Below are positions 5,527-49,444 of a stretch of 64,000 nt of DNA, one piece after another. The notes beneath the pieces were generated by a model. The model worked only from the letters and a program-made list of their open reading frames with translations. It was not told where the DNA came from and did not search any database. The DNA comes from a bacterium (GTDB lineage Bacteria; Bacteroidota; Bacteroidia; Flavobacteriales_D; Sanyastnellaceae): positions 1-64,000 of the forward strand of contig JAPOHG010000003.1 in the NCBI GenBank assembly GCA_029979565.1, written 5' to 3'. A program made the translations under genes and the position numbers. Each line of letters begins with the position of its first letter. Positions within the stretch are counted from its first letter, which is position 1.

Positions 5527-5534
5527 TACCTTTG
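5527..5534 (+). promoter_or_regulatory. -7 promoter box TACCTTTG, 4 nt before ATG 5539
   Basis: TACCTTTG-gttc-ATG; matches TAnnTTTG. Confidence 0.7.
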
Positions 5535-5538
5535 GTTC

Positions 5539-6321
5539 ATGCAGGTTGAATTCACATTTCTCGGTACGGGTACCTCTCAAGGAGTGCCCATCATTGGCTG
5601 CAGATGTGAAGTTTGTCAGAGTCCTGATGAGCGCGATCAACGTTTGCGTAGCTCCCTGCTGGTAAAAGCTGGGGGAGCAACAGCGGTGATTGATACCGGA
5701 CCTGATTTTCGGCAACAATGCCTCCGTGCACAGGTGGATGCCCTGGACGCCGTGGTTTTCACGCACGAACACAAGGACCACGTCGCGGGATTGGATGACA
5801 TCCGTCCGTTTAATTTTCGAAGCCGGAAGGACATGCCGGTTTACGCAACGCCACGCGTGCAGGAAGCCTTGCGACGCGAATTCAAATACATTTTTGAAGC
5901 GGACTACCCCGGTGTGCCGAGGGTCCAGCTTATGCAGCTGAATGACGAGCCGTTTGCGGTTGGTGATGCCATGTGGTGGCCCCTGCCGGTCATGCATCAT
6001 CGGTTACCCGTCATGGGTTTTCGAATCGGCGGATTGGCGTATATAACGGATGCGAATCAACTGTCGGAATTGGCACTGGAACGACTGAATGGGGTGGATG
6101 TGCTCGTCTTGAACGCCTTGCGACGGGAAGCACACCTATCGCATTTCACGCTGGAAGAGGCATTGAAATGGGCGTCAATAATTGGTGCCCGACAAACGTA
6201 CTTTACGCACATCAGTCACCAATTGGGCCTTCACGAATCCGTCAACGCGGAATTGCCGCATGGAGTGGCCTTGGCGCACGACGGTTTGGTCGGCACAACG
6301 AATGAAGTCGGGTTGGATTGA
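5539..6321 (+). CDS. MBL-fold metallo-hydrolase (PhnP/YycJ-like)
   Basis: MQVEFTFLGTGTSQGVPIIGCRCEVCQS..., VFTHEHKDHVAGLDD; start set at ATG 5539, 4 nt after a TACCTTTG box, rather than track start 5416. Confidence 0.88.
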   Translation: MQVEFTFLGTGTSQGVPIIGCRCEVCQSPDERDQRLRSSLLVKAGGATAVIDTGPDFRQQCLRAQVDALDAVVFTHEHKDHVAGLDDIRPFNFRSRKDMPVYATPRVQEALRREFKYIFEADYPGVPRVQLMQLNDEPFAVGDAMWWPLPVMHHRLPVMGFRIGGLAYITDANQLSELALERLNGVDVLVLNALRREAHLSHFTLEEALKWASIIGARQTYFTHISHQLGLHESVNAELPHGVALAHDGLVGTTNEVGLD

Positions 6322-6339
6322 CCGTATTTTAGCACGACC

Positions 6340-7251
6340 ATGACGTTGCTCCTCCTCCGAATTTTTTCCCGTTTGCCTTTTCGCGCTTTGCACGTGATCA
6401 GTGGGTTCGTAGCGCGGTTGGCGTCAGATGTGGTTGGGTATCGCCGACCCGTGATTCGGGGCAACATTGAGCGCAGTTTTCCGGAACGTTCCAAAGCCGA
6501 GCACAGGAAGATTGAACGCGCATACTACTTGCATTTTGCGGATATTACCTTGGAATCCATCAAGAATTTCTGCATCACCGATGCGGAGGCCCAGTCGCGT
6601 ATGTGCCATGTGGGGGTGGAGGCCTTTGAGCCATTTTTTAAGGCTGGTCGGAGCGTGCTCATCGCCGGGGGGCATTACAACAATTGGGAGCTCTATGCCA
6701 TGACGGCCAATCAAAATCTGCCGCACGATGTCATGGCCGTTTACAAGCGGTTGTCTGACCGCGCGATGGATGAGGCTGTGCGCGATTCGCGCCAACGGTT
6801 CGGGTTGGAAATGGTCCGCACCGTAGACGCCCAAGCGTGGATGGATGCCCACGCGCGAGGGGCGCGTCCCAAGGCGGTGGTGATGGGGTTTGATCAAAGT
6901 CCTGCTGACCCGGTCAAATCGTGGTGGAATCAATTCCTGAATCAAGAAACGGCATGGTACTTCGGCCTCGAGAAATGGGCGCGGATGTACGATTTACCGG
7001 TCCTATACGGACACATCAAGAAGCTCAGCCGCGGCCGCTACGAAACGCATTACGAATTGGTCACCGACGCGCCAAACGACTTACCTGATGGAGCGATCCT
7101 GCAACGGTGCATTGATTTATTGGAAGCCGATATTCGTCAAATTCCGCATCAATGGCTCTGGTCCCACAAGCGGTGGAAGCACGAGCGGCCTGAAGCGATG
7201 CCATTGAACCCAAGGCCTGAAGCAGAAGCAAAAGATGTTCAGCATGCATGA
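6340..7251 (+). CDS. Lysophospholipid/lipid A acyltransferase family protein (LpxL/HtrB-like)
   Basis: VLIAGGHYNNWELYA, MGFDQSPADP and WLWSHKRWKHERP motifs. Confidence 0.85.
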   Translation: MTLLLLRIFSRLPFRALHVISGFVARLASDVVGYRRPVIRGNIERSFPERSKAEHRKIERAYYLHFADITLESIKNFCITDAEAQSRMCHVGVEAFEPFFKAGRSVLIAGGHYNNWELYAMTANQNLPHDVMAVYKRLSDRAMDEAVRDSRQRFGLEMVRTVDAQAWMDAHARGARPKAVVMGFDQSPADPVKSWWNQFLNQETAWYFGLEKWARMYDLPVLYGHIKKLSRGRYETHYELVTDAPNDLPDGAILQRCIDLLEADIRQIPHQWLWSHKRWKHERPEAMPLNPRPEAEAKDVQHA

Positions 7252-10227: not shown

Positions 10228-11315
10228 TGCTTTTCGCTGCTTTTTAGCGTCCCATTTTCGTAGGTCTCAATGAGCAACAACCGACCGTTCAGGCCGTAGT
10301 TGTAGACATCGCCGTCCAATTTGCCATTCACGTATTCCCCTTCCCGTCGGATGGCTTCGCCGGTGAGGACGCGTTTCCGCAAGGCGTCTCCGGTTTCGGG
10401 GTCAATGGACTCTTCAATGGTCCATTCGCCCGCATCGTGCCATTCGCGGAAAGGTCCGGTCTTCAGTTGGTCCACCACCTCAAATTCTTCCTTGGGCCTG
10501 CCGTCGGAAAAAGTCAACAAGACGGGTCCGTTCTCATATATTTCCTTCAGCATTTCACCTTTGTCGAACTGCCTCGTGGTTTGCACCGTCCCGTCTTCCA
10601 TGAAGGATTTCCAGTATCCGTTTTCTTTACCGGTGTCGTACAATCCCACCGTTTGGGGCCTTCCGTTGGCGTAATTGATTTTGCACAGGCCGTGGAACAC
10701 GCCGTTGCGGTACCCGATTTCTGAAAGCAAGGTTCCGAATTCATCCCACGTCTTCCACGTTCCGTCTCGCTGACCGTCAACGTATGATCCTTCTTCGAGG
10801 CGTTTTCCATTTTTACTCAAGGTTACCGAAGGGCCTTGAAGGATATCCATGTTGTAGTTTTCCTTGAGCCGTACTTGACCGCTGGCATCGTAGTACACCC
10901 ATTCGCCTTGTTTGAGGCGCATCGGCTCGCCTTGTTCGTTGAGTTTTCGGCTGGTCATGTACATGCCTTCCGCCTGCAGCGAGCCGCCTTGCCGGTACAA
11001 TTTGGTGAATGCCTTGCGCCCGTTTTCGATGTGTGTCACTTCGGACATCAACTCGCCGGATTCGAAGAAAAACTTGAACTGGCCCGATGGTGTGCCGTCT
11101 TTGAATTGGCCGACGTAGTAGAGGTTCCCGTTCGGCCAGACACGGATCCACTTGCCTTCTTTGTTGTTCTTGGCGTTGTTGACATTGAAATCAATGCCGG
11201 CCTCCCCAACGGGGTAGTTGCCTCCGGAGGGAGTTCCCGGTTGTGCCCACAGGGCTTCACCCATGAACAGGGCAATTGAAAGTAGGAGGGTAGCAGGGGT
11301 GACGTTGCGCATCAT
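10224..11315 (-). CDS. MORN-variant repeat protein (YwqK-like antitoxin-repeat family), secreted
   Basis: Repeated G.w..y...G.l......y..G pattern; signal peptide MMRNVTPATLLLSIALFMGEALWAQ; start refined from 11333 to 11315. Confidence 0.8.
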   Translation of the reverse strand: MMRNVTPATLLLSIALFMGEALWAQPGTPSGGNYPVGEAGIDFNVNNAKNNKEGKWIRVWPNGNLYYVGQFKDGTPSGQFKFFFESGELMSEVTHIENGRKAFTKLYRQGGSLQAEGMYMTSRKLNEQGEPMRLKQGEWVYYDASGQVRLKENYNMDILQGPSVTLSKNGKRLEEGSYVDGQRDGTWKTWDEFGTLLSEIGYRNGVFHGLCKINYANGRPQTVGLYDTGKENGYWKSFMEDGTVQTTRQFDKGEMLKEIYENGPVLLTFSDGRPKEEFEVVDQLKTGPFREWHDAGEWTIEESIDPETGDALRKRVLTGEAIRREGEYVNGKLDGDVYNYGLNGRLLLIETYENGTLKSSEKQ

Positions 11316-11449
11316 GGTAGCGAAATTAAACAATTGGCGGGTGGTCCCATGGGTTAGAACGGATGCGTTCGTGCGAATTGTACACGGTCCATGGACACAG
11401 GGCTTTCCTTGTGTACTTTTGCCCTCCCAAACACCATTATTTCAGAACC

Positions 11450-12413: not shown

Positions 12414-14679
12414 ATTGAACGACAACCCGCACGGTTCGGATCAATCCGCCCGCTGCGGGTTGCGTCGTTAAGAGGTACAGGCCCGGCGTTGCCGGAGCCA
12501 TCAGCAAGTTGGATCCTGCTCGTCGCATTCCCAAGGCCTCGACCATTCGTCCCTGAGCATCGAACCACGCCACGCGGCTCCGTTGAGGCAACATGATGCG
12601 AATCGGACCGCCTGTTCGCGCCGGGTTTGGGGCAATAATCGGGAGAGAAGGCAGCTGGTGGCCGGTGATATCTACAGTCGTACCATTGAACCACCGCAAC
12701 CCACCGTTTTGAATGCCGACGACCAATTCGGGAATGCCATCGCCAGTGATATCGCCGAGGGTTCCACTGGAACGCAGTCCTCGCATGGCCTCGTTCCAAG
12801 ACGGGCCCGAGGCCTCGAGCGGTGCAAGAATGTCTTCCGAATCGAGTGTGCCGAAGTATTGGATTTCCCCCAGCTCATTACCAGCAGCAATGTGAAGCCC
12901 GCTGCCATCATCGTACAAGCACGGCGTGGAGTACCCGTTGATTCCGAGGGCATTGTTGACTTGGATGCCGCCCCAGTTCGCTTCAGTTTCGGGCGTGGTT
13001 TGGAGGCACCAAGCGGGGGTTGAAGCCGAACCGCAATTCAGGTACAGCGACAAGGTGCCGTTCTTTTCTCCGACGACCAGATCCAGCAGCCCGTCACCAC
13101 TGACATCGATCAATTGCGGGGCGGCGAATTGCCCGACATCAATGGCCTCACCGTCTGCATCTTGAACGGCCAATTGGGATAAGGTCCACGCCGGCCAGCT
13201 GCCGGGTTCGGCCTCGTTGCTGTATGCGTGAAGCAAGCCCAGTTCATCTCCGACGATAAGATCGATATCGCCGTCGCCATCCCAATCGCCAAAGGCCGGG
13301 TGGCCGCTTTCAATGCCGTTGAACACAAAATCAATGGCATTCCAAGTATGCCATGCAAAGGCGGGTTGGGATGCAGTTCCCGTATTCTCGAAGAGGGCCA
13401 GTGCCGTTGGGGTGTTGTTGACGCCTTCGTACCGTTCCTTGTTGCCAACGGCGAGGTCCAAATCGCCGTCCCCATCCAGGTCGTGAAGAACGGGAATGGC
13501 CCCACGTCCCACATCAATGGTGCCGTCTTGGATCCAATGGTCGGAGGCCAATGCCCACAGGGGTTCATCGGCAGTTCCTTGGTTTTCCCACAGCTGAACG
13601 CACTGGTCGTCATTGATTTCCAAGGCAATGTTGGGGGAGATGATCAAGTCCCAATCGCCGTCTTCATCCGGATCAATCGGATACGCAGCAGGGAACCGTT
13701 GGAGCACAATGCTATCGGCTTCACCGGTGTGCGGCACGAGGGCAGGGAAGGCCATATCCACCCAGGCGGTGCTGTCTTGGCCATCGGTGGCATCCTCCAG
13801 CATGAGGCCGCTCATGGTCGGGTAGGTGACGTCCGAGATGAGCAGGTCGTGGAAATTTTCTCCGTCGCATTGCAAAGCCGTGATCGCTCCCCCGGCGTGA
13901 ACGCCGTCTCGCTGGGCTGCTTCCCCTTCGGTGGGAGCTGGTCGACCTTCAGGATCGACCACATTGAAACTGCAGTTGTGATCGGCTCCGATAAATAGCG
14001 TGTTGTCCTCCGATCCCTCGGATACCATGCCGTAACACCGGTTCGTGCAGACCAGGTCCAGCCCGCAAGCCGATTGTCCAGAAAACCGGTACAGGGAAGT
14101 GCTCGTCTCGGTGAAGCAAATAAAGTCGAGGTCGCCGTCGTTGTCCACGTCGAAAATGGCGGGCTTGTCAATGGTCAAACACACCAGTGGCAGTTCTTGG
14201 GCCCCAGTTCCGAAATCCCAACTGGCTGAAAGCGGCAGTGCGTAAGGCTCGAACGCTGGAACTCCCGGTACCGTTGTGGCGTTGCGGTAGACGTGGATGC
14301 TGTTTTGGTAGCCGGTGAACAGGTCGGGCAGTCCATCGCAATCAAAATCGCGCAACAAGGCCCAGTGCTTAAGAGCGGGCCATCCGAGGCACCAGTCCGG
14401 ACGCTCGTGCCAATCGCCGGTCTCTGTTTTTTCAAACACCAAAATTCGGCTACCGTCTCGATCGAAGGCAAACAAATCCATGTCACCGTCCCAATCCATG
14501 TCTATTTCTGACCACTGCGGGGCACTCATTCCACCTGTGAAAGGGTGAGGCATTGCCGTCTCATCGATGGTCACTTCGGGCCCCTCGGAAAGGCTCCAGC
14601 CCCACGGGGTTTGCCCAACAGCCGAACGGTGTAAAATCAATAGCGCAAACAGGGTGAGGCAGAACTGACGGGGCTTCAT
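12412..14679 (-). CDS. FG-GAP/VCBS-repeat secreted protein with T9SS C-terminal domain
   Basis: Repeated DxDxDGDxDL motifs (DMDWDGDMDLFAFD, DLDGDGDLDLAVGN, DWDGDGDIDLIVGD); C-term IAPNPARTGGP...TPGLYLLTTQ. Confidence 0.92.
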   Translation of the reverse strand: MKPRQFCLTLFALLILHRSAVGQTPWGWSLSEGPEVTIDETAMPHPFTGGMSAPQWSEIDMDWDGDMDLFAFDRDGSRILVFEKTETGDWHERPDWCLGWPALKHWALLRDFDCDGLPDLFTGYQNSIHVYRNATTVPGVPAFEPYALPLSASWDFGTGAQELPLVCLTIDKPAIFDVDNDGDLDFICFTETSTSLYRFSGQSACGLDLVCTNRCYGMVSEGSEDNTLFIGADHNCSFNVVDPEGRPAPTEGEAAQRDGVHAGGAITALQCDGENFHDLLISDVTYPTMSGLMLEDATDGQDSTAWVDMAFPALVPHTGEADSIVLQRFPAAYPIDPDEDGDWDLIISPNIALEINDDQCVQLWENQGTADEPLWALASDHWIQDGTIDVGRGAIPVLHDLDGDGDLDLAVGNKERYEGVNNTPTALALFENTGTASQPAFAWHTWNAIDFVFNGIESGHPAFGDWDGDGDIDLIVGDELGLLHAYSNEAEPGSWPAWTLSQLAVQDADGEAIDVGQFAAPQLIDVSGDGLLDLVVGEKNGTLSLYLNCGSASTPAWCLQTTPETEANWGGIQVNNALGINGYSTPCLYDDGSGLHIAAGNELGEIQYFGTLDSEDILAPLEASGPSWNEAMRGLRSSGTLGDITGDGIPELVVGIQNGGLRWFNGTTVDITGHQLPSLPIIAPNPARTGGPIRIMLPQRSRVAWFDAQGRMVEALGMRRAGSNLLMAPATPGLYLLTTQPAAGGLIRTVRVVVQ

Positions 14680-14749
14680 GTGGGCAAGTTATCCGATTCC
14701 TGTTGATTACTTCGCATGTTTCCTCAAATGTGACCGACCGGGTTGGAAA

Positions 14750-14757
14750 TAAGTTTG
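14750..14757 (+). promoter_or_regulatory. -7 promoter box TAAGTTTG, 4 nt before ATG 14762
   Basis: TAAGTTTG-ggcc-ATG. Confidence 0.7.
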
Positions 14758-14761
14758 GGCC

Positions 14762-15172
14762 ATGCCATCATTCAACCGCGAACAACGCCTTTGGGTTGCT
14801 TGGGGATTGCTGTGTGTTGGTGCCTCCGTCCTGCTCGCTGCATACGGTCGCCACGGCATGGCCACGGCAGAACTTCAGACCCGATGGGGCATCGCCGTTG
14901 AATATTTTCGGTTCATGGGGTTGGGGCTCGTGACCATGGTGGTCGTCCGCACGCTAAGTGGAGGCATGAACGACCGGATGTGGGCCGAGCGAATGCTGGT
15001 GTTGGGTACATTGCTTTTTGCCGGTACCGTGGGGGCCGAGGGTGTCGCACCGGATTCCAAACTTTTGGGTCAATTGGGATGGGTCGCCCCATTGGGTGGT
15101 ATCCTCATGGCATTGAGCTGGTTCACATTTGTTGTTGAATTTCTTCGAAACAAACGTCCTTTTCCTACCTAG
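14762..15172 (+). CDS. DUF423-like small membrane protein
   Basis: About 4 hydrophobic segments; AAYGRHGM...RWGIAVEYFRFMGLGL resembles the DUF423 N-terminal signature. Confidence 0.65.
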   Translation: MPSFNREQRLWVAWGLLCVGASVLLAAYGRHGMATAELQTRWGIAVEYFRFMGLGLVTMVVVRTLSGGMNDRMWAERMLVLGTLLFAGTVGAEGVAPDSKLLGQLGWVAPLGGILMALSWFTFVVEFLRNKRPFPT

Positions 15173-16841: not shown

Positions 16842-16849
16842 TACCTTTG
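16842..16849 (+). promoter_or_regulatory. -7 promoter box TACCTTTG, 4 nt before ATG 16854 (rsmE)
   Basis: TACCTTTG-ggcc-ATG. Confidence 0.7.
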
Positions 16850-16853
16850 GGCC

Positions 16854-17555
16854 ATGCGATTCTTTTATGCGCCCACGGTTGATGCGGTTCACGCATTGAA
16901 CCCCGATGAGTCCAAGCATCTGGTCCGCGTGTTGCGAGGGCAGGTGGGGGACTGTGTCGGTTTGGTTGATGGCAAAGGCCACCGGTATGAAGGCGTCTTG
17001 ACGGAAGCGGATAAACGCCGTTGTGTGCTGTCCACGAAATTGGTGGAAACCCAGCCAGCGCCCGCATTTCCCCTCACGTTGGTCATTGCACCCACGAAAA
17101 GCACCGACCGCTTTGAATGGCTCTTGGAGAAGGCCATGGAATACGGGGTTCGTAAAATTCAACCCGTGTGGACGGAACGGAGCGAACGGAAAACCGAAAA
17201 GGCAGAGCGCTGGGAAAAGATTTTGGTCAGTGCATTGAAACAATCCCAGCAGCTATGGCTCACCGAGTTGGCGCCGGCGGTATTGTGGCAGGAGTGGCTG
17301 AACGCAGGTGAGGCCAGTGCGAATCAAGGCTTTGTCGCCCACTGTGAACCAACTGAAAAACAGCACTTGTTTGATGCGATAGCGACGACGCAACCATGCT
17401 GGGTGGCCATCGGGCCTGAAGGCGATTTTACGCCATCAGAGATTGAGGCGGCACGGTCAAAAGGCGCCGTCGCCGTTTCCCTTGGAGAGCAGCGCCTGCG
17501 CACGGAAACGGCTGGATTGGCAGCCATTCAAATGCACGCGCTCGCGCACCGCTGA
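16854..17555 (+). CDS. rsmE: 16S rRNA (uracil1498-N3)-methyltransferase
   Basis: C-terminal WVAIGPEGDFTPSEIEAARSKGAVAVSLGEQRLRTETAGLAAI; start at ATG 16854 after TACCTTTG box. Confidence 0.93.
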   Translation: MRFFYAPTVDAVHALNPDESKHLVRVLRGQVGDCVGLVDGKGHRYEGVLTEADKRRCVLSTKLVETQPAPAFPLTLVIAPTKSTDRFEWLLEKAMEYGVRKIQPVWTERSERKTEKAERWEKILVSALKQSQQLWLTELAPAVLWQEWLNAGEASANQGFVAHCEPTEKQHLFDAIATTQPCWVAIGPEGDFTPSEIEAARSKGAVAVSLGEQRLRTETAGLAAIQMHALAHR

Positions 17556-17840: not shown

Positions 17841-18622
17841 GATCCTTTGAATTGGGGTGCACGCTTTTCGAGGAATGCTGAAACGCCTTCGGCATAGTCT
17901 TCGGTTTTCGAAGCTTCCATTTGCAGGTCCCGCTCGGTGGTGAGGTGGTCCGAGAGCGCTGCGTTCCATCCAGCATTGAAGGCACGTTTGGTCAAGCCCA
18001 ATCCCCGGGTGGGCATCTGGGCAAGGCGTTCGGCCAGCGCAGCCACTTCGGCCTCGAAGTCCTCATCGGCCACAGCTTTGTGGATGAGCCCGATGGCCTG
18101 AGCTTCGGAGGCGCTCAACTTGTCTCCAAGGAAAGCCAATGCTGCGGCTCGTTGCATGCCCACCAGGCGCGGTAAGAACCATGTTCCTCCGCTGTCGGGA
18201 ATGAGGCCGATTTTGGAGAATGCTTGGATGAAGCGAACGGAGTCCCTTGCCACGGTCAAGTCACAGGCCAGTGCGATGTTCGCTCCGGCTCCGGCTGCTA
18301 CGCCATTGATAGCGCCGATCACGGGCTTTTCCATGGATCGGATGCGGCGGATGCTTTCGTTGTAGGTCTGTTCGACGATTTCAGTGAAATCTGGTGCATC
18401 CGGCGCGGTGACTTCCTTGAGGTCTTGTCCCGCGCAGAAGGCCTTACCGTTGCCCGTTATGACCACGCAACGCACGGTGCCATCAGAGGCCGCGTCATCA
18501 AGGGCTTCTTGAAACGCTTGTCCCATGTCCTGGTTGAAGCTGTTGAATACCGATGGTCGGTTCAACGTGATGGTGCAGATCCCGTTGTGCGTCGAAGTCA
18601 GAATGGTGGGTTCTGTGGTCAT
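17837..18622 (-). CDS. Enoyl-CoA hydratase/isomerase family (PaaG-like)
   Basis: ITLNRPSVFNSFNQDM, GNGKAFCAGQDLKE, GAINGVAAGAGANIALACDL. Confidence 0.9.
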   Translation of the reverse strand: MTTEPTILTSTHNGICTITLNRPSVFNSFNQDMGQAFQEALDDAASDGTVRCVVITGNGKAFCAGQDLKEVTAPDAPDFTEIVEQTYNESIRRIRSMEKPVIGAINGVAAGAGANIALACDLTVARDSVRFIQAFSKIGLIPDSGGTWFLPRLVGMQRAAALAFLGDKLSASEAQAIGLIHKAVADEDFEAEVAALAERLAQMPTRGLGLTKRAFNAGWNAALSDHLTTERDLQMEASKTEDYAEGVSAFLEKRAPQFKGS

Positions 18623-18631
18623 GCTCTAAAG

Positions 18632-20533
18632 TTAACGACGGATGAGGATGTGCGTGCACTTCGAACCCACGCGAAGGAGGTAGACTCCAGTTGGGAGGAA
18701 GCTGATGTCAATGCGCGAAGTCGCCGCATCAGCAATCAATTTCTGGGTGGCTACGAGTTGGCCAGTGAGGGTGTGCAAGGTGGCGGTTTCTTCATCCTGG
18801 AATCCCGCGACGTACACGGTTTCATAGGCCGGATTGGGCCACACGTGAAACGATTGATTGTGCTCCGTGACAGAAGAAGGGATCCAAGCAAACTGTGTTG
18901 CGAATTCGCATCCGGATTGATCCACAACAATGACCTCGATTTCTGCGCCATCCATCAACGCTTCGGCAGCATCGGAGCAGGGGCCTTCCAGGGTTAATTC
19001 GTCTCCCGTGCAGACTTCGGAGCCATTCACCATCCAATGGACCGTGTAGGTTCCATTGGCTCCGGCCACATCGACAGAGGCTGCCCCGGGTTCAATGTTC
19101 AAGGTGGCCGATAGGGTGCAGGGTTGACAAACCAAAAGGGGAGCAGGGTCCAACTCCCACGCACCCATTGGTGTAAGGTCCACCGAATTGAACACCGGGA
19201 ATTGTGCCGGGTAACGCGTCGCGCGGAAAAGCAGGTTGTCATTCATACCGAGTTCTGTGCCCTGTGCTATGGTTGTTCCACCTTGAAGAGGCACACGGTA
19301 ATACCAGGCCGTATCACCCGTCGCTGTGAACTCATAAATTTCTCCGGTGCGTCCGCTCAGGATGAGGTTGTTGCCGTTGGGCAGCCGTTCGAAGTTGGAA
19401 AGACCGCTGCTGAAAAAATCGGTTGGGTTCGGTGCCGTCCAGTTCCAATCGAAATCAACCGGGGCATAGGTGGCGGTATCGTTGATTGTGTTCATCATGT
19501 AGGCCGTGTAGGCCTCTGTTTCGATGAGTTCTGGCGCAATCAAATGGGCACTGGAATAAGGGCCTGTTGGGCCCGGGTTGCGGTTGTTGAAGACGGCGAT
19601 TTTGCCAAAATCAGGTGAGCCTTGGTGGTAGGGTGCATCCAACCAGCGGGCGGCATGCTGGTAGTGAAGGAGCTGGTCTTCACTCGTGCCCCGATCATAC
19701 GCTTCCGGGTTGCCCCAGCGCCAAATCAACCCCCCGTTCGGAGCTCCCTTATCGATGATCCACAATTCATCGAAAGTCGGTACGCTCAGTAAGATGTGAT
19801 CCAGGGCCGGGTTGTAGTCGATGCTGTTGATGTGGAGCCAATCCGGTGCTGCCGAACTGGGGGAGCCGAAATTGAGGTTCACACGTTGGGGCGCAAATTC
19901 AGGGACGCCAAAATTGGCTTTGGTGGAATCGAAATCTTGAACGAGGTGGTCCCACACCCGCCACTCCCAAATGACATCGGCCCCTCCCGATTCGTTGGGC
20001 AACAATTCGATGATGCGTTCGCTCCAAAGCTCGCCGTCTTCCAGCAGTTCGGGGTCACGTCCGGCCTCCACTGCTGCAATGGAATCGATGCGCTCCCAAG
20101 CGATGGCCAACACAGTTCCTGCGTTGGTCAATGCAAAGTCGTGGTGCAAGCGCCCCGTCGAATCATTCAGGGTATAGTTCCATTGGATGTTGTTGTTCCA
20201 GGAACGTCCTTCAATGACGGCACCTCCTCCACCGGCCCAAATCGCGTCGCCCTGGAAATTGGCCGGGCGGTGTGCCCAGATCAAGCTACCCATTGGCGTC
20301 AAATAGGCACTGTTGCCCGGGCGGCGAAGCGAGTCATTGGTCCACATGTGCACCACCTCTCCGCAGGCATCAATGAGCCGGGCATGCGGTTGATTGTGGG
20401 GGTAAATCAGGGTATAACCGTCTGCGTACAAAGCCGGATCGTAAGCAATCGTTCCAACGGTATTGGATTGACCGCAAACCCAAGCCAAGGGCAGCATACT
20501 CAGCAGTGCGGCGATACAGGGTGTGGTTTTCAT
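18632..20533 (-). CDS. Arylsulfotransferase (ASST)-like secreted protein with T9SS C-terminal domain
   Basis: GYTLIYPHNQPHARLIDACGEVVHMW, DWLHINSIDYNPALDHILLS; C-term VWPNPAYETVYVAG...LPTGVYLLRVG; start refined to ATG 20533. Confidence 0.8.
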   Translation of the reverse strand: MKTTPCIAALLSMLPLAWVCGQSNTVGTIAYDPALYADGYTLIYPHNQPHARLIDACGEVVHMWTNDSLRRPGNSAYLTPMGSLIWAHRPANFQGDAIWAGGGGAVIEGRSWNNNIQWNYTLNDSTGRLHHDFALTNAGTVLAIAWERIDSIAAVEAGRDPELLEDGELWSERIIELLPNESGGADVIWEWRVWDHLVQDFDSTKANFGVPEFAPQRVNLNFGSPSSAAPDWLHINSIDYNPALDHILLSVPTFDELWIIDKGAPNGGLIWRWGNPEAYDRGTSEDQLLHYQHAARWLDAPYHQGSPDFGKIAVFNNRNPGPTGPYSSAHLIAPELIETEAYTAYMMNTINDTATYAPVDFDWNWTAPNPTDFFSSGLSNFERLPNGNNLILSGRTGEIYEFTATGDTAWYYRVPLQGGTTIAQGTELGMNDNLLFRATRYPAQFPVFNSVDLTPMGAWELDPAPLLVCQPCTLSATLNIEPGAASVDVAGANGTYTVHWMVNGSEVCTGDELTLEGPCSDAAEALMDGAEIEVIVVDQSGCEFATQFAWIPSSVTEHNQSFHVWPNPAYETVYVAGFQDEETATLHTLTGQLVATQKLIADAATSRIDISFLPTGVYLLRVGSKCTHILIRR

Positions 20534-32011: not shown

Positions 32012-32015
32012 AGAA

Positions 32016-32023
32016 CAAAGATA
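32016..32023 (-). promoter_or_regulatory. -7 promoter box TATCTTTG, 4 nt before GTG 32011
   Basis: TATCTTTG-ttct-GTG on - strand. Confidence 0.7.
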
Positions 32024-32346: not shown

Positions 32347-32347
32347 G

Positions 32348-36950: not shown

Positions 36951-37442
36951 TTAAACCGCCTCGGGTTCCGCAACCAGGTCAGGAGCTCCATGCAGTGCAT
37001 GGCTGCCTCCCTCTTCTTCGAGTGGAAACACCTCGGTGATTTTTTGGAAAATCACGGAAGGAATAACGAATCCCACGCCCACTTTGGACATGTGCTTGCG
37101 CACCTTGTCATAGGCATCCCGAACGTCCGTGGCCGACAACAGAATATGCTGGTACGATTCTTTCTCTTTGCCGGCTTTTTCATCCAGGCTGGTGAGGGCG
37201 ATTTTGACCTTGAACCACTGGTCGGCATCATCGAATCGAATCACCTCAACGAGGTTGGACTTGGTGATTTGTACAATCTCGAAGGGGCGAATGCCTTCTT
37301 GTTCGCAAATGCCCGTCATCCGTGCTTCTGCCTCGGTGTAATTGTAGGCATCGAGAACGAAGGATTCGGTAGCCTTCACTTCCGCACCTTCGGCATCGTG
37401 GCGGACGTATTTAACCTTGCAAGTGAACCAGTGTTTCGTCAT
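36951..37442 (-). CDS. DUF4494-like protein
   Basis: KHWFTCKVKYVRHDAEGAEVKATESFVLDAYNYTEAEARM; recalled Bacteroidota family. Confidence 0.75.
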   Translation of the reverse strand: MTKHWFTCKVKYVRHDAEGAEVKATESFVLDAYNYTEAEARMTGICEQEGIRPFEIVQITKSNLVEVIRFDDADQWFKVKIALTSLDEKAGKEKESYQHILLSATDVRDAYDKVRKHMSKVGVGFVIPSVIFQKITEVFPLEEEGGSHALHGAPDLVAEPEAV

Positions 37443-37446
37443 GGAG

Positions 37447-37454
37447 CAAAAGTA
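37447..37454 (-). promoter_or_regulatory. -7 promoter box TACTTTTG, 4 nt before ATG 37442
   Basis: TACTTTTG-ctcc-ATG on - strand. Confidence 0.7.
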
Positions 37455-38869: not shown

Positions 38870-39522
38870 CCTTGGGCTTTGGCGTGGTCGGCGAGGAATT
38901 GCGCCAACCCGTTATCGGTTAACGGGTGCTTGAGCAATCCTTTGATGGCACTGAGTGGGCCGGTCATGATGTCGGCACCGATTTCAGCGCATTCGATGAT
39001 GTGCATCGTGTGGCGCACGCTTGCGGCGAGAATTTCCGTCCCGAAATCGTAGTTGTCGTAAATGACACGGATTTTCTCAATCAGCTGCAAACCGTCCGAG
39101 CTGATGTCGTCGATGCGTCCTACGAACGGACTGACATAAGAAGCACCCGCTTTGGCGGCGAGAAGGGCCTGACCTGGAGAGAAAATCAAGGTGCAGTTCG
39201 TGCGGATCCCATTGTCAGTGAACCAGCGAATGGCGCGGATGCCGTCGGCAATGGCGGGTACCTTGACCACGATGTTGGGGTGGAGGGCAGCAAGGGCTTG
39301 ACCCTCGGCAATCATCCCTTCAAATTCGGTTGAAATAACTTCGGCACTCACGTCCCCGTCTACGATTTCGCAGATGGCTTTGTAATGAGCCTTAACGGCG
39401 TCATCACCTGTGATGCCTTCTTTGGCCATCAGGGATGGATTGGTGGTTACTCCGTCCAGCACGCCGAGGGCTTCGGCTTCGCGGATTTGATCGAGGTTGG
39501 CGGTGTCGATGAAAAATTTCAT
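38866..39522 (-). CDS. Transaldolase/fructose-6-phosphate aldolase family
   Basis: [51 protein letters not shown]. Confidence 0.94.
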
Positions 39523-39594
39523 GCCGCGAAATTAGCACATCTCAATGGTTTGCTTGGTGCTTTTGGGGGTTGTATCTTGATAAAAAGCACCGAG

Positions 39595-39936: not shown

Positions 39937-40057
39937 TTCCCGGTGTGGGTAGCGATTGTGTACAAGTCTCAAATTTTGTTTGAAACCTCGCATACGAAAG
40001 CCAAGAACGGCGCGTTTTAGGCGGTGAATGGCCGTGTGTCCTGCTATTTTTGTGGCC

Positions 40058-40969
40058 TTGCTGTTCAAAGCCAAATCCGTGAGAACGATTCACAACTCTG
40101 CATTCCGTGTGTTCCCCGCCTGCTTGTTGTTGCCGGGATGTGTTGCCGCGCTGGTCGGGTGCATCGAACCGTGGGACGGCCCGCCTCATTTCTTGCACGT
40201 AGAAGACATCGCATTTGTTCCGGATGCGAACCAAGGCGAACCCACAAGCCGCATTGAGGAAGTGTGGGTCTATTCCGAAACGGATGTGCTGGGCGCCTTT
40301 CCTTTGCCGGCTGACATTCCTTTGAGTCCTCAAGCCCTTGGCGAAAATACAACGCTGACGCTCAGCGCCGGAATTCGTGCCAACGCCATCAGTTCGACCC
40401 GCCAGCCTTACCCTTTTTACGAAGCAGTGGAAGTGCCGATGGCCTTGGAATTTGGTGGGAGGGACACCCTCGAGATGTCCGTGGGCTACACGGATTGGAC
40501 AGAAGTGGTCATTGCGGAGGACTTTGAAACGGCCAATCGTTTCGAGCCTGCGATTACGAGCACCGCCGACATCGTTCGCACTGAATCGGAGGCGTTGGTG
40601 CTCGACGGAACGAGCAGTGGATTGGTTGTGTTGGATTCCGATCACCAAACGCTCATTTCATCCACCAATGAACAGCAGTACAATTTGCGGTCAAACGGAC
40701 CGGTCTGGCTTGAACTGGATTACGCTTGCACCCAGCCTTTTTGGGTGGGTCTGTACGTGAAAGATGCCGTTAATGCCCAACGCGTCCCAATTCTTGTGCT
40801 CAATTCTACGGAGGGTGAACGCAACAAAATTTACTTGGATTTAGACCCCGTGGTGCGCACGACGCCTGACGCTACACATTACGAGCTGACCCTAGATGCT
40901 TATTACGATGGCTCCGCAGATTCAACATTTGTGGTTGTCGACAACTTCAAACTTTTGCGTTACCCATGA
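40058..40969 (+). CDS. Hypothetical, probable lipoprotein; start likely TTG 40058 or later GTG (track start 40028)
   Basis: N-terminal hydrophobic segment ending LVGC (lipobox-like); TATTTTTG box at 40045-40052, 5 nt before in-frame TTG 40058. Confidence 0.65.
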   Translation: MLFKAKSVRTIHNSAFRVFPACLLLPGCVAALVGCIEPWDGPPHFLHVEDIAFVPDANQGEPTSRIEEVWVYSETDVLGAFPLPADIPLSPQALGENTTLTLSAGIRANAISSTRQPYPFYEAVEVPMALEFGGRDTLEMSVGYTDWTEVVIAEDFETANRFEPAITSTADIVRTESEALVLDGTSSGLVVLDSDHQTLISSTNEQQYNLRSNGPVWLELDYACTQPFWVGLYVKDAVNAQRVPILVLNSTEGERNKIYLDLDPVVRTTPDATHYELTLDAYYDGSADSTFVVVDNFKLLRYP

Positions 40970-42378: not shown

Positions 42379-42421
42379 GTTGTTCGACGAATAAATATTG
42401 ATTTTAAGCGATATTTGAGGG

Positions 42422-43549
42422 GTGAAACTTTCACGCCCACATCCAATCGCTTGTACGTGGTTTCGCACGGGAATGACGACTGCCATGGCGCTCGCCTGCT
42501 GGACGGTCCTTATGGCGCAGACGGAGCCCAACCTGAGTGTCCGGTCTTACCGCACGCAACAGTTGATCATGGCCAACGTGGGGCATTACCTGGAAGGTGC
42601 TGTTCAGGTGGACATCGAGGCGGGAACGGTCACATGGAATGCCTCGCTCCGGCAAGTGGAGCAGAATATTTTATCGGTGATTGAGGAGGTGGCTGCCTAC
42701 CAAGCCATGGATGGAGCTTTGAAGCGGATCGCTTTGTCGTCCGAAACCACAGCGTTGATTGAGCGCGTTTCGAATCTCTCCTTTCGAGATCTCCGCCATT
42801 GGCGCATGGCCGAGGGGCTTTCGGAGGTGGAACAGTGGTATGTGATGGTGCAATCGGCTTTGGATGAAGTTCGGATGCAGGTGGCCATTGATCTCAAGGT
42901 GCACCTAAATCAAACCTTGATGGATGCGTTGCTTGCTTCACGTACAGCAGAGGTTGAATCCACAGGATGGCTAGAAATTGATGAAGGACAATCCCTCCCT
43001 GCGATGGATTGGGAGCAATCGGATGCCACCGCGACGGATTTATCCCTGGATGATGCATCGGTATGGCCAGCAGTCCCTTCGGCAGATGCTGAAATGGCCT
43101 TGATCCTGGAGCGTATTCTGCAGTTGATTGAAAACCAAGAAGCGAGGTTGACGCAACTCGAATCGGGTACAGCCGGATCGATGCACACTCCGTCGGGTTC
43201 GCCCGGACTGGCTGCCGGGGCATTGCGCCTCCCCGAATTCATCGACGTGTCATTTTACTCCGGTTCAGCGAAGTTGACCTTGGGCGCTCAGTTGCAACTC
43301 AACGAAATCATCGAAGTCATGGGACGCCATCCGCAGGTGCGCGTCGTGTGCACGGGTCACGCTGATTTACCAGGAGACCGCCAATCGAACTTGGCCTTGT
43401 CGCGGCGTCGAGCCGAGTCGGTGCGCTCGTATTTGCTTCAAAGCGGGATTGAGCCAGCTCGGGCTTTGCTCAATTTCTTTGGGGAGGAGCGGGCCTCAAC
43501 CACCGGCCCTTCGGATCGCCGGGTAGAGGTTCGGTTTTTCCTGAATTGA
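42422..43549 (+). CDS. OmpA-family C-terminal domain protein; GTG start
   Basis: C-term VSFYSGSAKLTLGAQLQLNEIIEVM...VCTGHADLPGDRQSNLALSRRRAESVRSYL...DRRVEVRF. Confidence 0.85.
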   Translation: MKLSRPHPIACTWFRTGMTTAMALACWTVLMAQTEPNLSVRSYRTQQLIMANVGHYLEGAVQVDIEAGTVTWNASLRQVEQNILSVIEEVAAYQAMDGALKRIALSSETTALIERVSNLSFRDLRHWRMAEGLSEVEQWYVMVQSALDEVRMQVAIDLKVHLNQTLMDALLASRTAEVESTGWLEIDEGQSLPAMDWEQSDATATDLSLDDASVWPAVPSADAEMALILERILQLIENQEARLTQLESGTAGSMHTPSGSPGLAAGALRLPEFIDVSFYSGSAKLTLGAQLQLNEIIEVMGRHPQVRVVCTGHADLPGDRQSNLALSRRRAESVRSYLLQSGIEPARALLNFFGEERASTTGPSDRRVEVRFFLN

Positions 43550-44727: not shown

Positions 44728-45223
44728 CGGCGTCGCTTGCACTCTCCGTTGCTTCGATGCTCACTTCAATGTGCTCCTTCAGGTTGGTGCTTAGCGTCAA
44801 TCCACAAAAGTCCGCACGAACCGGGAAAGAACGATGTTTGCGGTCGATCAAGACCGCTGTAGCGACACGTTTTGGTCCTGCACTGAGAATGTGGTGAACT
44901 GCATACATGAGCGTTTTGCCTGAGTTCAATACATCGTCCAGAACGATGACCGATTGACCTGACAAGGTATCCAGCGACTCGCTCAATGTGATGGCTCCTT
45001 CAAGGGGATTGGATTTGTTCAGTTCGAGGATAGAGGCCTTTACCTGAAGCTCTCCGATGGCCTCGATGATTTCACCGATGCGTTTTCCTACCGGTTCGCC
45101 GTTGCCTGCTATGGTGATGAGGTGTAGCACGTCTTCCGTGTGGAACGCCTCAATGATCTGCCGGGCAATCCGCTGAAGCTTGCGCTCGATTTGATTGGAT
45201 TCAAGGATGCGGGTGCTGCTCAT
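44711..45223 (-). CDS. Phosphoribosyltransferase (PyrR/Hpt-like)
   Basis: SVIVLDDVLNSGKTLMYAV PRPP-binding motif. Confidence 0.88.
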   Translation of the reverse strand: MSSTRILESNQIERKLQRIARQIIEAFHTEDVLHLITIAGNGEPVGKRIGEIIEAIGELQVKASILELNKSNPLEGAITLSESLDTLSGQSVIVLDDVLNSGKTLMYAVHHILSAGPKRVATAVLIDRKHRSFPVRADFCGLTLSTNLKEHIEVSIEATESASDAATLHD

Positions 45224-45226
45224 GGC

Positions 45227-46684
45227 TCAAAGGTCTGCTGTTTTTTCGAATACTCCAACCGCCTCCACATGCGCCGTATGTGGAAATTGATCCACCAAGG
45301 TCAGTTTCGTCAATGCATAGCCAGCTTCGGCCAATGTCGCGATATCGCGCGCTTGGGTGGCCGGGTTGCAGGAGACGTACACCATGCGTTTGGCTCGGAT
45401 GCGAATGACTTTGCGGAGGGTCTTGGGGGAGATGCCCGCACGCGGTGGATCGAGGACAATGGTGTCAATTTTGCCGACATATTCCGGGTATTCCAGCAGG
45501 AATTTGCCCACATCGGCGGCATGGAATTCCACATTTTGAATGCCGTTTTTCTGGGCGCTTCGACGGGCGTCGATAATGGCCTGCTCGACGATGTCCACGC
45601 CGATGACTTTCCGGGAGGAGGCGCGTGCGAGCAACTGCCCGATGGTGCCCGTTCCGCAGAATAAGTCCATGACGTAGCCGTCGGATGAGGCGCCGTCCGT
45701 CCAATCGGCCGTTGCTTCGGAAACAGTCATTTCATACAACCGCTCGGCGCTTGCCGGATTGGTTTGAAAGAAGCTTGCCATTTCGACATCAAAGTCCAAT
45801 CCATGCAGGGTTTCCGTAACGAAAGGGTCGCCGTAAATACAGGTGCTAGCACCTGCTCTCGCTTCGACCCGTTCGCCTTTGTCATCGTTCACGGTGTGGA
45901 GTACGCCTTGAAGGCGATCTCCGAATAACGCTTTGAACTCGGCGATGCATGCCTCACGGTCGAAATGGGCAATGCCATCGGATGTGGTGACCAGGTTGAT
46001 GAGCAAGCGCTGGGTGGCGATGCTTTTGCGCACGACGAGGAAGCGAAAAAAGCCTTCGCGACGCGGGGGATGCCATGCGGGCAACCCGGTTGATTCGAAC
46101 CATTGACGCAATTGGGGCAAGGCGTTTTCGACGTTTGCATCGAAGAGGCCAGAATCTCGGTTGAGGTCTTCCACGGCCCACCAGGTACCCCGCCGCTTGA
46201 AGCCCAGCCCAAAGCGGTCCTCTTTCTCACCGGTTTCCGGATTGTGGACGATGGCGGAAAAGCTGTACTCCATCTTGTTGCGGTAGTGCCAGTTCGCCGG
46301 CGAACCAATGAGGCCTTGGTATACGCGATCGAGGTGCTCGATATTTCCGATTTTGCGGTACAGCTCCAGAGCGGTTTGTTCCTTCAATGCGTGTTGATCC
46401 TCGATGGGCAAGTGTGCATACGGAGCCCCGGGTATTTCTTGGTAGGGAATGGATTCTTCGCGGGGGGACCGTTCCAGCACATCTTCCAATTTGCATTCCG
46501 CGTACTTGGATTTGCACTTCACCACGCGGGCATTGACCCGTTGTCCCGGAAGGGCATTCTGCACAAAAATCACGAAAGGTCCTCGCTCTGTTTCTTGCCG
46601 AGCAATGCCCTTGCCTCCGAATGCAACGTCTTGAATGTCAAGGGTTAGCACTTGGTTTTTCCGGAAGAGTCGTTCGCGTCTCAC
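45227..46684 (-). CDS. rlmD: 23S rRNA (uracil-C5)-methyltransferase, RlmD/RumA-like; GTG start proposed
   Basis: TRAM-like N-term, DLFCGTGTIGQLLA, DTIVLDPPRAGISPKTL, MVYVSCNPATQARDI; in-frame GTG at 46684 follows TACTTTTG box. Confidence 0.9.
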   Translation of the reverse strand: MRRERLFRKNQVLTLDIQDVAFGGKGIARQETERGPFVIFVQNALPGQRVNARVVKCKSKYAECKLEDVLERSPREESIPYQEIPGAPYAHLPIEDQHALKEQTALELYRKIGNIEHLDRVYQGLIGSPANWHYRNKMEYSFSAIVHNPETGEKEDRFGLGFKRRGTWWAVEDLNRDSGLFDANVENALPQLRQWFESTGLPAWHPPRREGFFRFLVVRKSIATQRLLINLVTTSDGIAHFDREACIAEFKALFGDRLQGVLHTVNDDKGERVEARAGASTCIYGDPFVTETLHGLDFDVEMASFFQTNPASAERLYEMTVSEATADWTDGASSDGYVMDLFCGTGTIGQLLARASSRKVIGVDIVEQAIIDARRSAQKNGIQNVEFHAADVGKFLLEYPEYVGKIDTIVLDPPRAGISPKTLRKVIRIRAKRMVYVSCNPATQARDIATLAEAGYALTKLTLVDQFPHTAHVEAVGVFEKTADL

Positions 46685-46689
46685 GGGGG

Positions 46690-46697
46690 CAAAAGTA
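46690..46697 (-). promoter_or_regulatory. -7 promoter box TACTTTTG, 5 nt before GTG 46684 (rlmD)
   Basis: TACTTTTG-ccccc-GTG on - strand. Confidence 0.7.
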
Positions 46698-46724
46698 CGC
46701 TGTTCGGCGCTGTATCTTGCGCCC

Positions 46725-47585
46725 ATGGTCAGGTTGCGATTCAATTTGTTTGGCGTGGGGATGGTGTTGGCCTTTGGAATGGCATGGACGGGAGTTCACG
46801 CGCAGTCCAATGCCGAGCTTTCGGTTTGCACGTTCAACGTGCGGTACGACAACCCCAACGATACCATCAAGTGGCACGAGCGGCGAAATGAAGTGGCGCT
46901 TGCGATGCGGTATTTTGACATTGTCGGCGTGCAAGAGGCCCTGCCCAATCAGTACGAAGACCTCAATGGCCTGATGCCCAAACACAAGGCGTTTGGAACG
47001 GGGCGTAATGCCGACGGATCGGGCGAAGCTTGCCCGGTGTATTGGAACGCAGAGCGCTTTGACTTTTTGCAGGGTGAAACGCGATGGCTGTCGTTGGAGC
47101 CCAATCAGCCTGGAAGCGTTGGATGGGACGCAGACCTGCCAAGGATTGCAACGGTGGTGGTGCTGTTCGACCGCAAGCGGCAGCAAACCGTACGGGTTAT
47201 CAATACACACTGGTCTCATGTAGGGGAGGATGCGCGCTTGAATGCAGCGGCGCTTGTGGCGGGCTGGACCGGTTGGGGTGCTTCTGGATCCGATGAATTG
47301 GTTGTGGTGTGCGGGGATTTGAATGCGGAGCCTGTATCGGAACCGGTTCAATCCCTGATGGCATCAGCAGACTTAATCGACACCTACGACACGGCGCGTT
47401 ACCGGTGCCGAAAATCATTTGGGACGTACACGACGTTTCTGCCCGAGAACCTCGCCAACGCCACTCGGATTGATTACATCTTGTACCGAGGGGCTGCTTC
47501 CGTTGATTGGGTCTGCGCCGATGAAGTGCTCAAGTACGGCGTGTACATCTCCGATCACATGCCCTACCACGCCATTCTGAAATGA
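46725..47585 (+). CDS. Endonuclease/exonuclease/phosphatase family protein, secreted
   Basis: SVCTFNVRYDNPNDTIKWHERRNEV, VGVQEALPNQ, NTHWSHVGEDAR, VVCGDLNAEP, SDHMPYHA. Confidence 0.9.
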   Translation: MVRLRFNLFGVGMVLAFGMAWTGVHAQSNAELSVCTFNVRYDNPNDTIKWHERRNEVALAMRYFDIVGVQEALPNQYEDLNGLMPKHKAFGTGRNADGSGEACPVYWNAERFDFLQGETRWLSLEPNQPGSVGWDADLPRIATVVVLFDRKRQQTVRVINTHWSHVGEDARLNAAALVAGWTGWGASGSDELVVVCGDLNAEPVSEPVQSLMASADLIDTYDTARYRCRKSFGTYTTFLPENLANATRIDYILYRGAASVDWVCADEVLKYGVYISDHMPYHAILK

Positions 47586-49006
47586 ACAATTCCAAAGCCA
47601 TTGCCCAAATTGCGGGGCCCATTGCGGCCGCTGTGGTGTGGTGGCTTTCCAGCAGCCAAGGGCTGCCGGACGAGGCGACCCGCGTTTTGGCTGCGGCTGC
47701 ATGGATGCTCATTTGGTGGATTGCTGAGGCGGTGCCGTTGGGCGTGACGTCCGTATTGCCAATGGTGTTGTTTCCGATCATGGGCATCGCATCGATTGCA
47801 GAGACGACGGCACCGTATGGTTCCCATTATGTGTTTTTGTTCATGGGCGGCTTCCTCATTGCGCTTGCATTGGAACGGTGGGATTTGCACAAACGATTTG
47901 CACTTTCAGTGTTGGTCTTGGCCGGTGGCAATCCACGCTGGCTCATCGCCGGTTTCATGGTAGCGACAGCTGCGCTCAGTATGTGGATATCCAATACCGC
48001 CACCACGCTCATGATGCTGCCCATTGCCCTGTCCGTCTTGCACAAAGTGGATGCGAAAACCCACCCCAATTTTGCGTTGGCTCTGCTGCTTGCAACGGCA
48101 TATTCGGCGAACCTCGGGGGCATCGCAACCCTCATTGGTACCCCGCCGAATGTGGCCATGGCAGGGGTGCTGGAAGACCAGTTCAACATCGAGGTTCCCT
48201 TTTTGGAGTGGACAATGATGGCCTTGCCGTTTTCGGTGTTGATGTTGGTTGTCGTGTACGTTTTGTTGACCCGCGTGTTGACCCCGGTGGCTCCAGGAAG
48301 CCTCAGCCAAGGCCACCATGAAATTCGATCCGAGCTCGCTGCATTGGGTTCCTGGAAGCCAGCCGAGCGCCGTGTAGCGGTGGTGTTTGCCTTGACGGGG
48401 CTGCTGTGGGTAGGACGCCGGTGGTTGGTCGCATGGACAGGCCTTGAGATGAATGACACCACCATCGCTATGGCTGCAGGCGTTGGCCTTTTTCTCATTC
48501 CAAGCGCCGAGCGTGATTCAGCGCGGTTGCTCACGTGGCGCGATACCCGAAACCTGCCATGGGATATCCTTCTCCTTTTCGGCGGTGGATTGACGCTGGC
48601 CAAAGCCCTGGGAGATGCCGAAGTGTTGGCCATGGTAGCCGAGGCCATGGCGGCTTGGGATGACATCAGCCTTGGGGCACTGGTGTTGTTGTTTGCAGGG
48701 GCCGCCCTGCTGTTGACCGAGGTGATGAGCAACTTGGCGTTGACCGTAGTGATGGTGCCCATCGTGGGGCAAATTGCCTTGGAATGGGGCGTCAATCCCA
48801 TGCTGCTGGTTATCCCCGTTACGATTGCGAGCAGTTGTGCGTTCATGCTGCCCATGGCCACGCCGCCGAATGCCATCATCTTTGGCAGCCAGCGCATCAC
48901 CATGAAGGAAATGGCGTCGGTGGGATTGCTGTTGAATGCAATCGCGGCCGTGCTCGCATGGGCCTGGGGGGTGTGGGTTTTGCCGGAGTGGTTGGAGTTG
49001 CTCTAA
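47582..49006 (+). CDS. SLC13/DASS-family anion:sodium symporter
   Basis: WWIAEAVPLGVTSVLPMVLFP, MFMGGFLIALALERW-like block, GGIATLIGTPPNVAMAG, SNLALTVVMVPIV, ATPPNAIIFGS. Confidence 0.92.
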   Translation: MNNSKAIAQIAGPIAAAVVWWLSSSQGLPDEATRVLAAAAWMLIWWIAEAVPLGVTSVLPMVLFPIMGIASIAETTAPYGSHYVFLFMGGFLIALALERWDLHKRFALSVLVLAGGNPRWLIAGFMVATAALSMWISNTATTLMMLPIALSVLHKVDAKTHPNFALALLLATAYSANLGGIATLIGTPPNVAMAGVLEDQFNIEVPFLEWTMMALPFSVLMLVVVYVLLTRVLTPVAPGSLSQGHHEIRSELAALGSWKPAERRVAVVFALTGLLWVGRRWLVAWTGLEMNDTTIAMAAGVGLFLIPSAERDSARLLTWRDTRNLPWDILLLFGGGLTLAKALGDAEVLAMVAEAMAAWDDISLGALVLLFAGAALLLTEVMSNLALTVVMVPIVGQIALEWGVNPMLLVIPVTIASSCAFMLPMATPPNAIIFGSQRITMKEMASVGLLLNAIAAVLAWAWGVWVLPEWLELL

Positions 49007-49011
49007 CTTTG
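49004..49011 (+). promoter_or_regulatory. -7 promoter box TAACTTTG, 4 nt before GTG 49016 (aroQ)
   Basis: TTG-N21-TAACTTTG-ctgt-GTG. Confidence 0.75.
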
Positions 49012-49015
49012 CTGT

Positions 49016-49444
49016 GTGAAGCGCATTGCCATTTTGAATGGCCCCAACTTGAATTTATTGGGGACCCGAGAGCCGGAGGTGTATGGCCAACGGTCCCTGA
49101 AAGAGCTGGAAGCCGAATGGGTGGCATTTGGGCAAACGCACGGGGTGGAAATCACCTGTGTTCAATCAAATGTTGAAGGCGAACTGATCGATGCCATTCA
49201 GGCCCACGGATTCGATGCAGATGCCATCCTGATCAATCCCGGAGGCTACACCCATACCAGTGTTGCCATTCGCGATGCCATCGCTGCAGTGGACGCTCCG
49301 GTTTATGAAATTCACATTTCCCATCCGGATGCGCGCGAGGAATTCCGAAAGACTTCGCTGGTGCGTGAAGTCTGTGCAGGAGGGGTAAGTGGCCTCGGTG
49401 TTCAGGGGTACATGGCTGTGCTTGAGTCCTTGATTACCGGTTGA
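49016..49444 (+). CDS. aroQ: 3-dehydroquinate dehydratase type II; GTG start
   Basis: ILNGPNLNLLGTREPEVYG, QSNVEGELIDAIQ, ILINPGGYTHTSVAIRDA, VYEIHISHPDAREEFR. Confidence 0.96.
   Translation: MKRIAILNGPNLNLLGTREPEVYGQRSLKELEAEWVAFGQTHGVEITCVQSNVEGELIDAIQAHGFDADAILINPGGYTHTSVAIRDAIAAVDAPVYEIHISHPDAREEFRKTSLVREVCAGGVSGLGVQGYMAVLESLITG

Follow-up and report, generated by a model that had tools for sequence, protein, structure and literature searches.

In a 64,000-nucleotide stretch of DNA from a bacterium of the family Sanyastnellaceae (Bacteroidota, Flavobacteriales_D; GenBank assembly GCA_029979565.1, contig JAPOHG010000003.1, positions 1 to 64,000; hereafter the window), the box TAnnTTTG recurs directly before start codons, most often at a distance of 4 nucleotides (nt). 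The motif, its spacing and frame specificity, its bias in gene context, and the conservation of both the starts and the spacing are plain in the DNA. Taken together, the results suggest that this is very probably a leaderless-rich lineage of Bacteroidota that uses an ordinary primary-sigma promoter.

A sequence-only reading of the window had described the box 4–5 nt before 19 starts, 10 of them with exact and nine with near matches. When these sites were re-read, the coordinates, strands and spacings of all 19 were as described. On the two strands of the window, exact TAnnTTTG occurred 26 times, compared with 16.9 expected from dinucleotide shuffling (3 of 100 shuffles reached 26). Ten of the 26 boxes were found 4–5 nt before the proposed starts, where random placement would put 0.02 (binomial P ~7e-25, a test that takes the gene starts of the sequence-only reading as given). 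Thus, since the number of boxes is only slightly above expectation, it is their position and not their frequency that is striking.

The small excess of boxes in the window, together with the fact that the near matches had been picked by eye, would fit an explanation by chance, in which letters resembling TTTG and ATG recur through base composition and the window was read selectively. We counted distances in 830 kb of the same genome, which, with parts of seven other genomes, made up the DNA stretches analysed. The assembly, whose contig 33 holds the window, comprises 1.96 Mb in 96 contigs, is 80% complete and has a GC content of 55% in the part read; 658 genes were called in the 830 kb by our own gene caller, which uses coding potential and leaves upstream signals unused. 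The spacing k denotes the number of nt between the end of the box and the start codon, and distances were counted to in-frame ATGs near the gene start. For k = 0 to 9, the exact box gave 0, 2, 1, 1, 34, 8, 3, 3, 0 and 3 cases, and there were no out-of-frame ATGs at k = 4 or k = 5. The distance histogram, a check laid down in advance in the sequence-only reading, consequently has its peak, in frame only, within the 4–5 nt proposed there; 4 nt is the mode (34, versus about 2 at other distances) and 5 nt merely a minor class. A low, broad excess of boxes was also present at 15–25 nt. In the whole 1.96-Mb assembly, TAnnTTTGN4ATG occurred 66 times, compared with 13 for the reversed-pattern control in the same genome. 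The pattern was enriched in 22 of 22 genomes of the genus (approximately 1554 versus 284 for the reversed control, summed by hand) and in G362, a genome of the same family (74 versus 2; genome labels such as G041 and G362 and the family labels f2, f17, f24 and f52 are designations internal to this analysis). The histogram with its single spacing and frame (34 versus 0 out of frame) already refutes chance, and with the reversed control and conservation over about 20 genomes, we give that explanation virtually no probability.

A scan of single-base variants at k = 4 showed that TAnnTTCG is a genuine alternative form of the box (15 versus a background of 1.5); GAnnTTTG (7 versus 1.2) and TAnnTTTC (7 versus 0.7) also peaked there, TAnnTTGY was modestly enriched (8 versus 1.7), and a TTTT variant showed no enrichment. 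Two other candidates were rejected. The Shine-Dalgarno (SD) motifs AGGAGG, AAGGAG and GGAGG gave no clear peak at k = 0–9 in the 830 kb, and the E. coli-type TATAAT gave nothing over the same distances. Base composition was rejected as the cause on the basis of the f17 genomes, which have equally few control matches (little A+T) and yet are depleted of the N4ATG pattern (approximately 282 versus 404 for the reversed control in the first 30 rows, summed by hand); thus, low A+T alone does not yield the 4-nt pattern. The depletion in f17 to below the control looks as if leadered lineages avoid box-adjacent ATGs.

The box lies at the usual distance of ribosome-binding signals, and Bacteroidota have no SD sequences but do have A-rich upstream motifs; A is enriched at -11 to -13 before operon-internal genes here, too. 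The possibility thus exists that the box is a translation-initiation signal, i.e. an enhancer or ribosome-binding motif within a leadered mRNA, and not a promoter. The context test included 636 genes, and a gene counted as a hit if a TTTG or TTCG box lay 4–6 nt ahead of a start codon that was in frame and close to the boundary of the coding region. Hits were obtained for 63 genes overall. The share was 39 of 200 among divergent genes, 12 of 102 among co-directional genes spaced 15–60 nt apart, and 4 of 154 among those with a gap of less than 15 nt (divergent versus operon-internal genes, Fisher test, 3e-7). A signal for ribosome binding would be expected inside operons as well, so the scarcity of boxes before operon-internal genes argues against this function. 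In addition, the density of boxes in intergenic DNA was 14 times that inside genes, and the consensus agrees with the sigma -7 element, also in that G is avoided at both N positions (5 of 42 leaderless boxes versus 61 of 184 other boxes, P=0.008). With a further point from the fsa gene given below, we consider a translation signal very improbable.

The identification of the box as the -7 element of Bacteroidota, made in the sequence-only reading, gains support from the fixed spacing, the frame specificity, the enrichment before divergent genes with depletion in operons, and the avoidance of G. Its statement that many genes are leaderless holds for about 10% of the called genes and about 20% of the divergent genes when the strict box is used, but not for all genes. 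The letter directly before the start codon was C in 40 of 48 (83%) box-linked genes and in 296 of 593 other genes (P=7e-6). The RpoD protein encoded in the same genome is of the Bacteroidota type, with 289 aa and no long N-terminal part, and is 86% identical to its best match (from a metagenome-assembled genome, MAG, of Flavobacteriales) and 81–84% identical to many Flavobacteriaceae proteins.

The distance of 4 nt was kept, with variable spacer letters, across about 18 congeneric genomes at smpB, ada, aroQ, fsa and pyrD, and largely so at rsmE; the assemblies of the relatives are mostly MAGs. At smpB (TACTTTTG-ttgcc-ATG, 23279..23294, + strand), an exact box was present at k = 4 in 17 of 18 loci of the genus (k = 5 in the genome of the window) and the 18th had TTTA; the k = 4 layout was also seen in three other genera of the family. 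The adenosine deaminase gene ada (TACCTTTG-agtc-ATG, 23241..23255, - strand), which is divergent from smpB, had the exact box at k = 4 in 17 of 18 loci, and again TTTA in the 18th. The 3-dehydroquinate dehydratase gene aroQ (TAACTTTG-ctgt-GTG, 49004..49018, + strand) had the box at k = 4–5 in 18 of 19 loci and kept its GTG in all 19. A TTTG/TTCG box was found at k = 4 in 15 of 19 loci of rsmE, which codes for a 16S rRNA methyltransferase (TACCTTTG-ggcc-ATG, 16842..16856, + strand), and at k = 4 or 5 in 17 of 18 loci of the dihydroorotate dehydrogenase gene pyrD, a near match in the window (TATTTTCG-cgcc-ATG, 24396..24410, + strand). For the gene of a DUF4494 protein (TACTTTTG-ctcc-ATG, 37440..37454, - strand), the position at k = 4 was conserved in the genus and the last base of the box was variable (TTTG or TTT followed by another base).

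The transaldolase/FSA gene fsa, another near match (TAATTTCG-cggc-ATG, 39520..39534, - strand), had its box at k = 4 in 19 of 19 loci of the genus. In other genera of the family and order the protein begins with the same M-K-F, and the box, where found, is at k = 17–29, a position that also speaks against a translation signal. Since the start is fixed and the box lies elsewhere in the other genera, it is the promoter that has moved, onto the start codon in this genus, and not the start.

It is also conceivable that the promoters are real and the start codons misassigned, so that translation begins downstream and the mRNAs have ordinary leaders. NCBIfam and Pfam profiles began at residues 1–9 of the following proteins encoded in the window: RsmE (profile 1-231, residues 1-230), AroQ (profile 1-140, residues 1-140), SmpB (residue 5 at profile position 3), the DUF4494 protein (Pfam, residue 5 at position 1), transaldolase, the 23S rRNA methyltransferase RlmD (TACTTTTG-ccccc-GTG, 46682..46697, - strand; TRAM domain, residue 9 at position 4) and a phosphoribosyltransferase with a near match (GACCTTTG-agcc-ATG, 45221..45235, - strand; Pfam, residue 4 at position 3). 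Outside the window, the profiles of Lpd, GpsA, RibB, MtaB, peptide deformylase and SSB likewise fitted the starts. In the DAHP synthase/chorismate mutase gene (TATCTTTG-ttct-GTG, 32009..32023, - strand), which starts with GTG at 32011, the upstream in-frame extension overlaps tRNA genes at 32134-32309. Beyond the individually checked genes, the starts are those of our own caller. Orthologues with the box elsewhere share the first residues, as the M-K-F of fsa indicates, and a start codon (ATG, or GTG in aroQ) stands at the fixed distance in nearly all congeners. Judged by profiles and orthologues, the start codons are the true ones in many leaderless-type genes, and general misassignment has only a slim chance of being correct, even with the first two of the following points on its side.

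The reading as leaderless genes has several observations against it. One start of the sequence-only reading, TTG at 40058 (TATTTTTG-tggcc-TTG, 40045..40060, + strand), had to be given up: it is not conserved, orthologues keep the box with no start codon following it, and an ATG lies 30 nt upstream, so 40058 is probably not a real start. At 20 of the 63 box-linked starts, the caller, blind to the box, chose another start. The enoyl-CoA hydratase gene starting at 18622 (near match; TAACTTTA-gagc-ATG, 18620..18634, - strand) shows both layouts within the genus, some congeners having k = 18–27. Aligned k = 4 sites had no T/G bias at -36 to -33, i.e. no TTTG/TTG element at -33, in agreement with the sequence-only reading, which had found no consistent one; this absence is not disqualifying, because F. 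johnsoniae also has no clear -33 element. Published transcript maps of the Bacteroidota studied so far call leaderless mRNAs rare, and the position of +1 relative to the box has been transferred from the Flavobacterium literature.

According to the mechanism that we propose, the recurrent element would be the usual -7 box recognised by the primary sigma factor of Bacteroidota, set so that +1 falls on the first nucleotide of the start codon. The polymerase would bind TA(H)(H)TT(T/C)G and initiate approximately 5 nt after the G. In F. johnsoniae, the -7 consensus is TAHHTTTG, 4–5 nt separate the box from +1, and the -33 element is weak (PMC6847099); in F. psychrophilum, it covers positions -12 to -5 (PMC9723704). 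Transcription thus begins about five nt after the G in the maps of both species, and with the 4-nt spacer found here it would begin at the start codon itself. The resulting mRNA would be leaderless, and ribosomes would have to load via a 5'-terminal AUG or GUG (GUG in the case of aroQ). This would be a common mode in the family for genes with a promoter of their own, with a smaller set having short leaders of about 10–30 nt alongside. We infer these 5' ends and leaderless translation from the N-terminus checks, the conservation of the spacing rather than of the spacer letters across the genus, and the published +1 position, which support the leaderless interpretation of the sequence-only reading at the level of the DNA. 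The sequence architecture is well supported; leaderless transcription is supported strongly, not finally.

The excess of TTTG/TTCG boxes at k = 3–6 was compared between lineages with the same pipeline. It amounted to 9.3 per 100 genes here, 9.4 in G362, 8.1 in UBA3431, 7.3 in an f24 genome (another class) and 6.7 in a Cryomorphaceae MAG (small sample); low values were obtained for the sister-family genome G041 (1.4, in 163 kb), 45 named Flavobacteriaceae loci (0.5) and Flavobacterium Root186 (0.1). In the genome of the window, the excess was 59 at k = 3–6 versus 30 at 10–45 nt, which as a rough estimate makes about two thirds of the detectable close promoters leaderless-type. In a survey of 297 genomes of the phylum, summed by hand and therefore approximate, the ratio of pattern to control was near 1 in most families. 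The f24 genomes G144, G136, G113 and G101 carry the same 4-nt signature (e.g. 56 versus 8), and its presence in this unrelated family suggests independent origins.

In published transcript maps, 87% of the leaders of F. johnsoniae are longer than 10 nt and 13% are 10 nt or less (PMC6847099), leaderless mRNAs make up 5.5% in F. psychrophilum (PMC9723704), and 3.7% of the 5' untranslated regions of B. thetaiotaomicron are shorter than 10 nt (PMC7366714). Of the 37 Bacteroidetes/Chlorobi in a survey of 953 bacterial genomes, one was reported to have leaderless genes, at a level of 2.4%, and the survey states that its detection is limited to Pribnow-like promoters (PMC3160421); thus, leaderless genes with the Bacteroidota box could have been missed. 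The literature searched, subscription papers being outside its coverage, contained no account of a Bacteroidota lineage rich in leaderless genes. From the maps it had been concluded that Bacteroidota seldom have leaderless mRNAs and that these do not account for the missing SD sequences. The present lineage appears to be a clear exception and can be recognised from its DNA through a phylum-specific box that is invisible to the main, Pribnow-only survey. It would offer a natural system for tracing the loss of leaders gene by gene among close relatives and a practical rule for calling gene starts in such genomes.

The remaining exact boxes of the window precede the genes of a PhnP-like MBL-fold hydrolase (TACCTTTG-gttc-ATG, 5527..5541, + strand; NCBIfam PRK02113, residue 5 at profile position 3) and a DUF423 protein (TAAGTTTG-ggcc-ATG, 14750..14764, + strand). 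The remaining near matches precede those of an OmpA-family protein (GATATTTG-aggg-GTG, 42410..42424, + strand), a MORN-repeat protein (TAATTTCG-ctacc-ATG, 11313..11328, - strand), an MBL-fold protein (a weak match of the TTTT variant; TAAATTTT-cacc-ATG, 26310..26324, - strand) and, with the TAnnTTGY variant, a member of the endonuclease/exonuclease/phosphatase family (TATCTTGC-gccc-ATG, 46713..46727, + strand) and an FG-GAP repeat protein (TAACTTGC-ccac-ATG, 14677..14691, - strand).

At aroQ (49004-49006, + strand; box at 49004-49011) and at the enoyl-CoA hydratase gene (box at 18627-18634, - strand), the box opens with the TAA stop codon of the preceding gene, so that a stretch of 15 nt holds the stop, the promoter and the start; the overlap at aroQ appears conserved across much of the genus. 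Divergent pairs with approximately 32–50 nt between the start codons and box-like elements on both strands were seen at 23243-23292 (ada and smpB) and 46684-46725 (rlmD and the endonuclease/exonuclease/phosphatase gene) of the window, and at C22:51340-51373 and C87:43840-43891 of G000. Such distances leave hardly any space in which the paired promoters could accommodate upstream elements. A gene for a 191-aa protein starting at 24296 (- strand) is preceded by the string TAGATTTG-ATTCCCAACG-ATG (24297-24314, - strand), which is nearly invariant in most of the genus and has a spacing of 10 nt, conserved spacer letters and G at the N positions; a similar string occurs in another genus of the family. 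It occurred once in the 830 kb, and the product had no Pfam match. The string has the appearance of a specialised element, regulatory or leader-related, and not of a standard box.

The 3' end of 16S rRNA varies within the order (L314, 725-745, - strand, and other places). One genome of the window's genus (G354, GGATTATCTCC) and several f2 genomes, some of them multi-copy, had UCUCC as the core of the anti-SD sequence; the core read ACUCC in G521 of the same family, UUUCC in four f52 genomes and the canonical CCUCC in others; UCUCA has been published for Chryseobacteria. An assembled 16S 3' end was available from one member of the genus only, most MAGs being without 16S, and the 94% identity of its 16S region to that of a second member supports the binning. 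The rpsU gene, sought for a complementary SD sequence upstream, was not found in the DNA stretches analysed. It may be that the whole family has adopted leaderless expression for most genes that have a promoter of their own, the -7 box having been shifted onto the start gene by gene, in some cases recently (fsa), with no visible use of SD sequences, a drifting anti-SD core (UCUCC, ACUCC, UUUCC) and ribosomes specialised for a 5'-terminal AUG or GUG; this wider scenario is tentative, and we rate it slightly below an even chance.

Among known systems, the Bacteroidota primary-sigma (sigma-ABfr) promoters share with those described here the box, the avoidance of G at both N positions and a weak or absent -33 element. 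They differ in that leaders there are mostly longer than 10 nt, whereas 4 nt is the commonest single spacing between box and start here, and in that the additional variant TAnnTTCG is used here. The TAnnTTGC of the near matches at 46725 and 14679 stands at the same position and resembles the SM5 class TAnnTTGY of F. psychrophilum (PMC9723704); TAnnTTGY is only weakly enriched here. The TA-led leaderless genes of Actinobacteria and Deinococcus-Thermus (PMC3160421) likewise carry their box at a constant spacing, about 10 nt ahead of the start, and are mostly first or single genes, but their box is of the Pribnow type TANNNT, unlike the TAnnTTTG of the present lineage.

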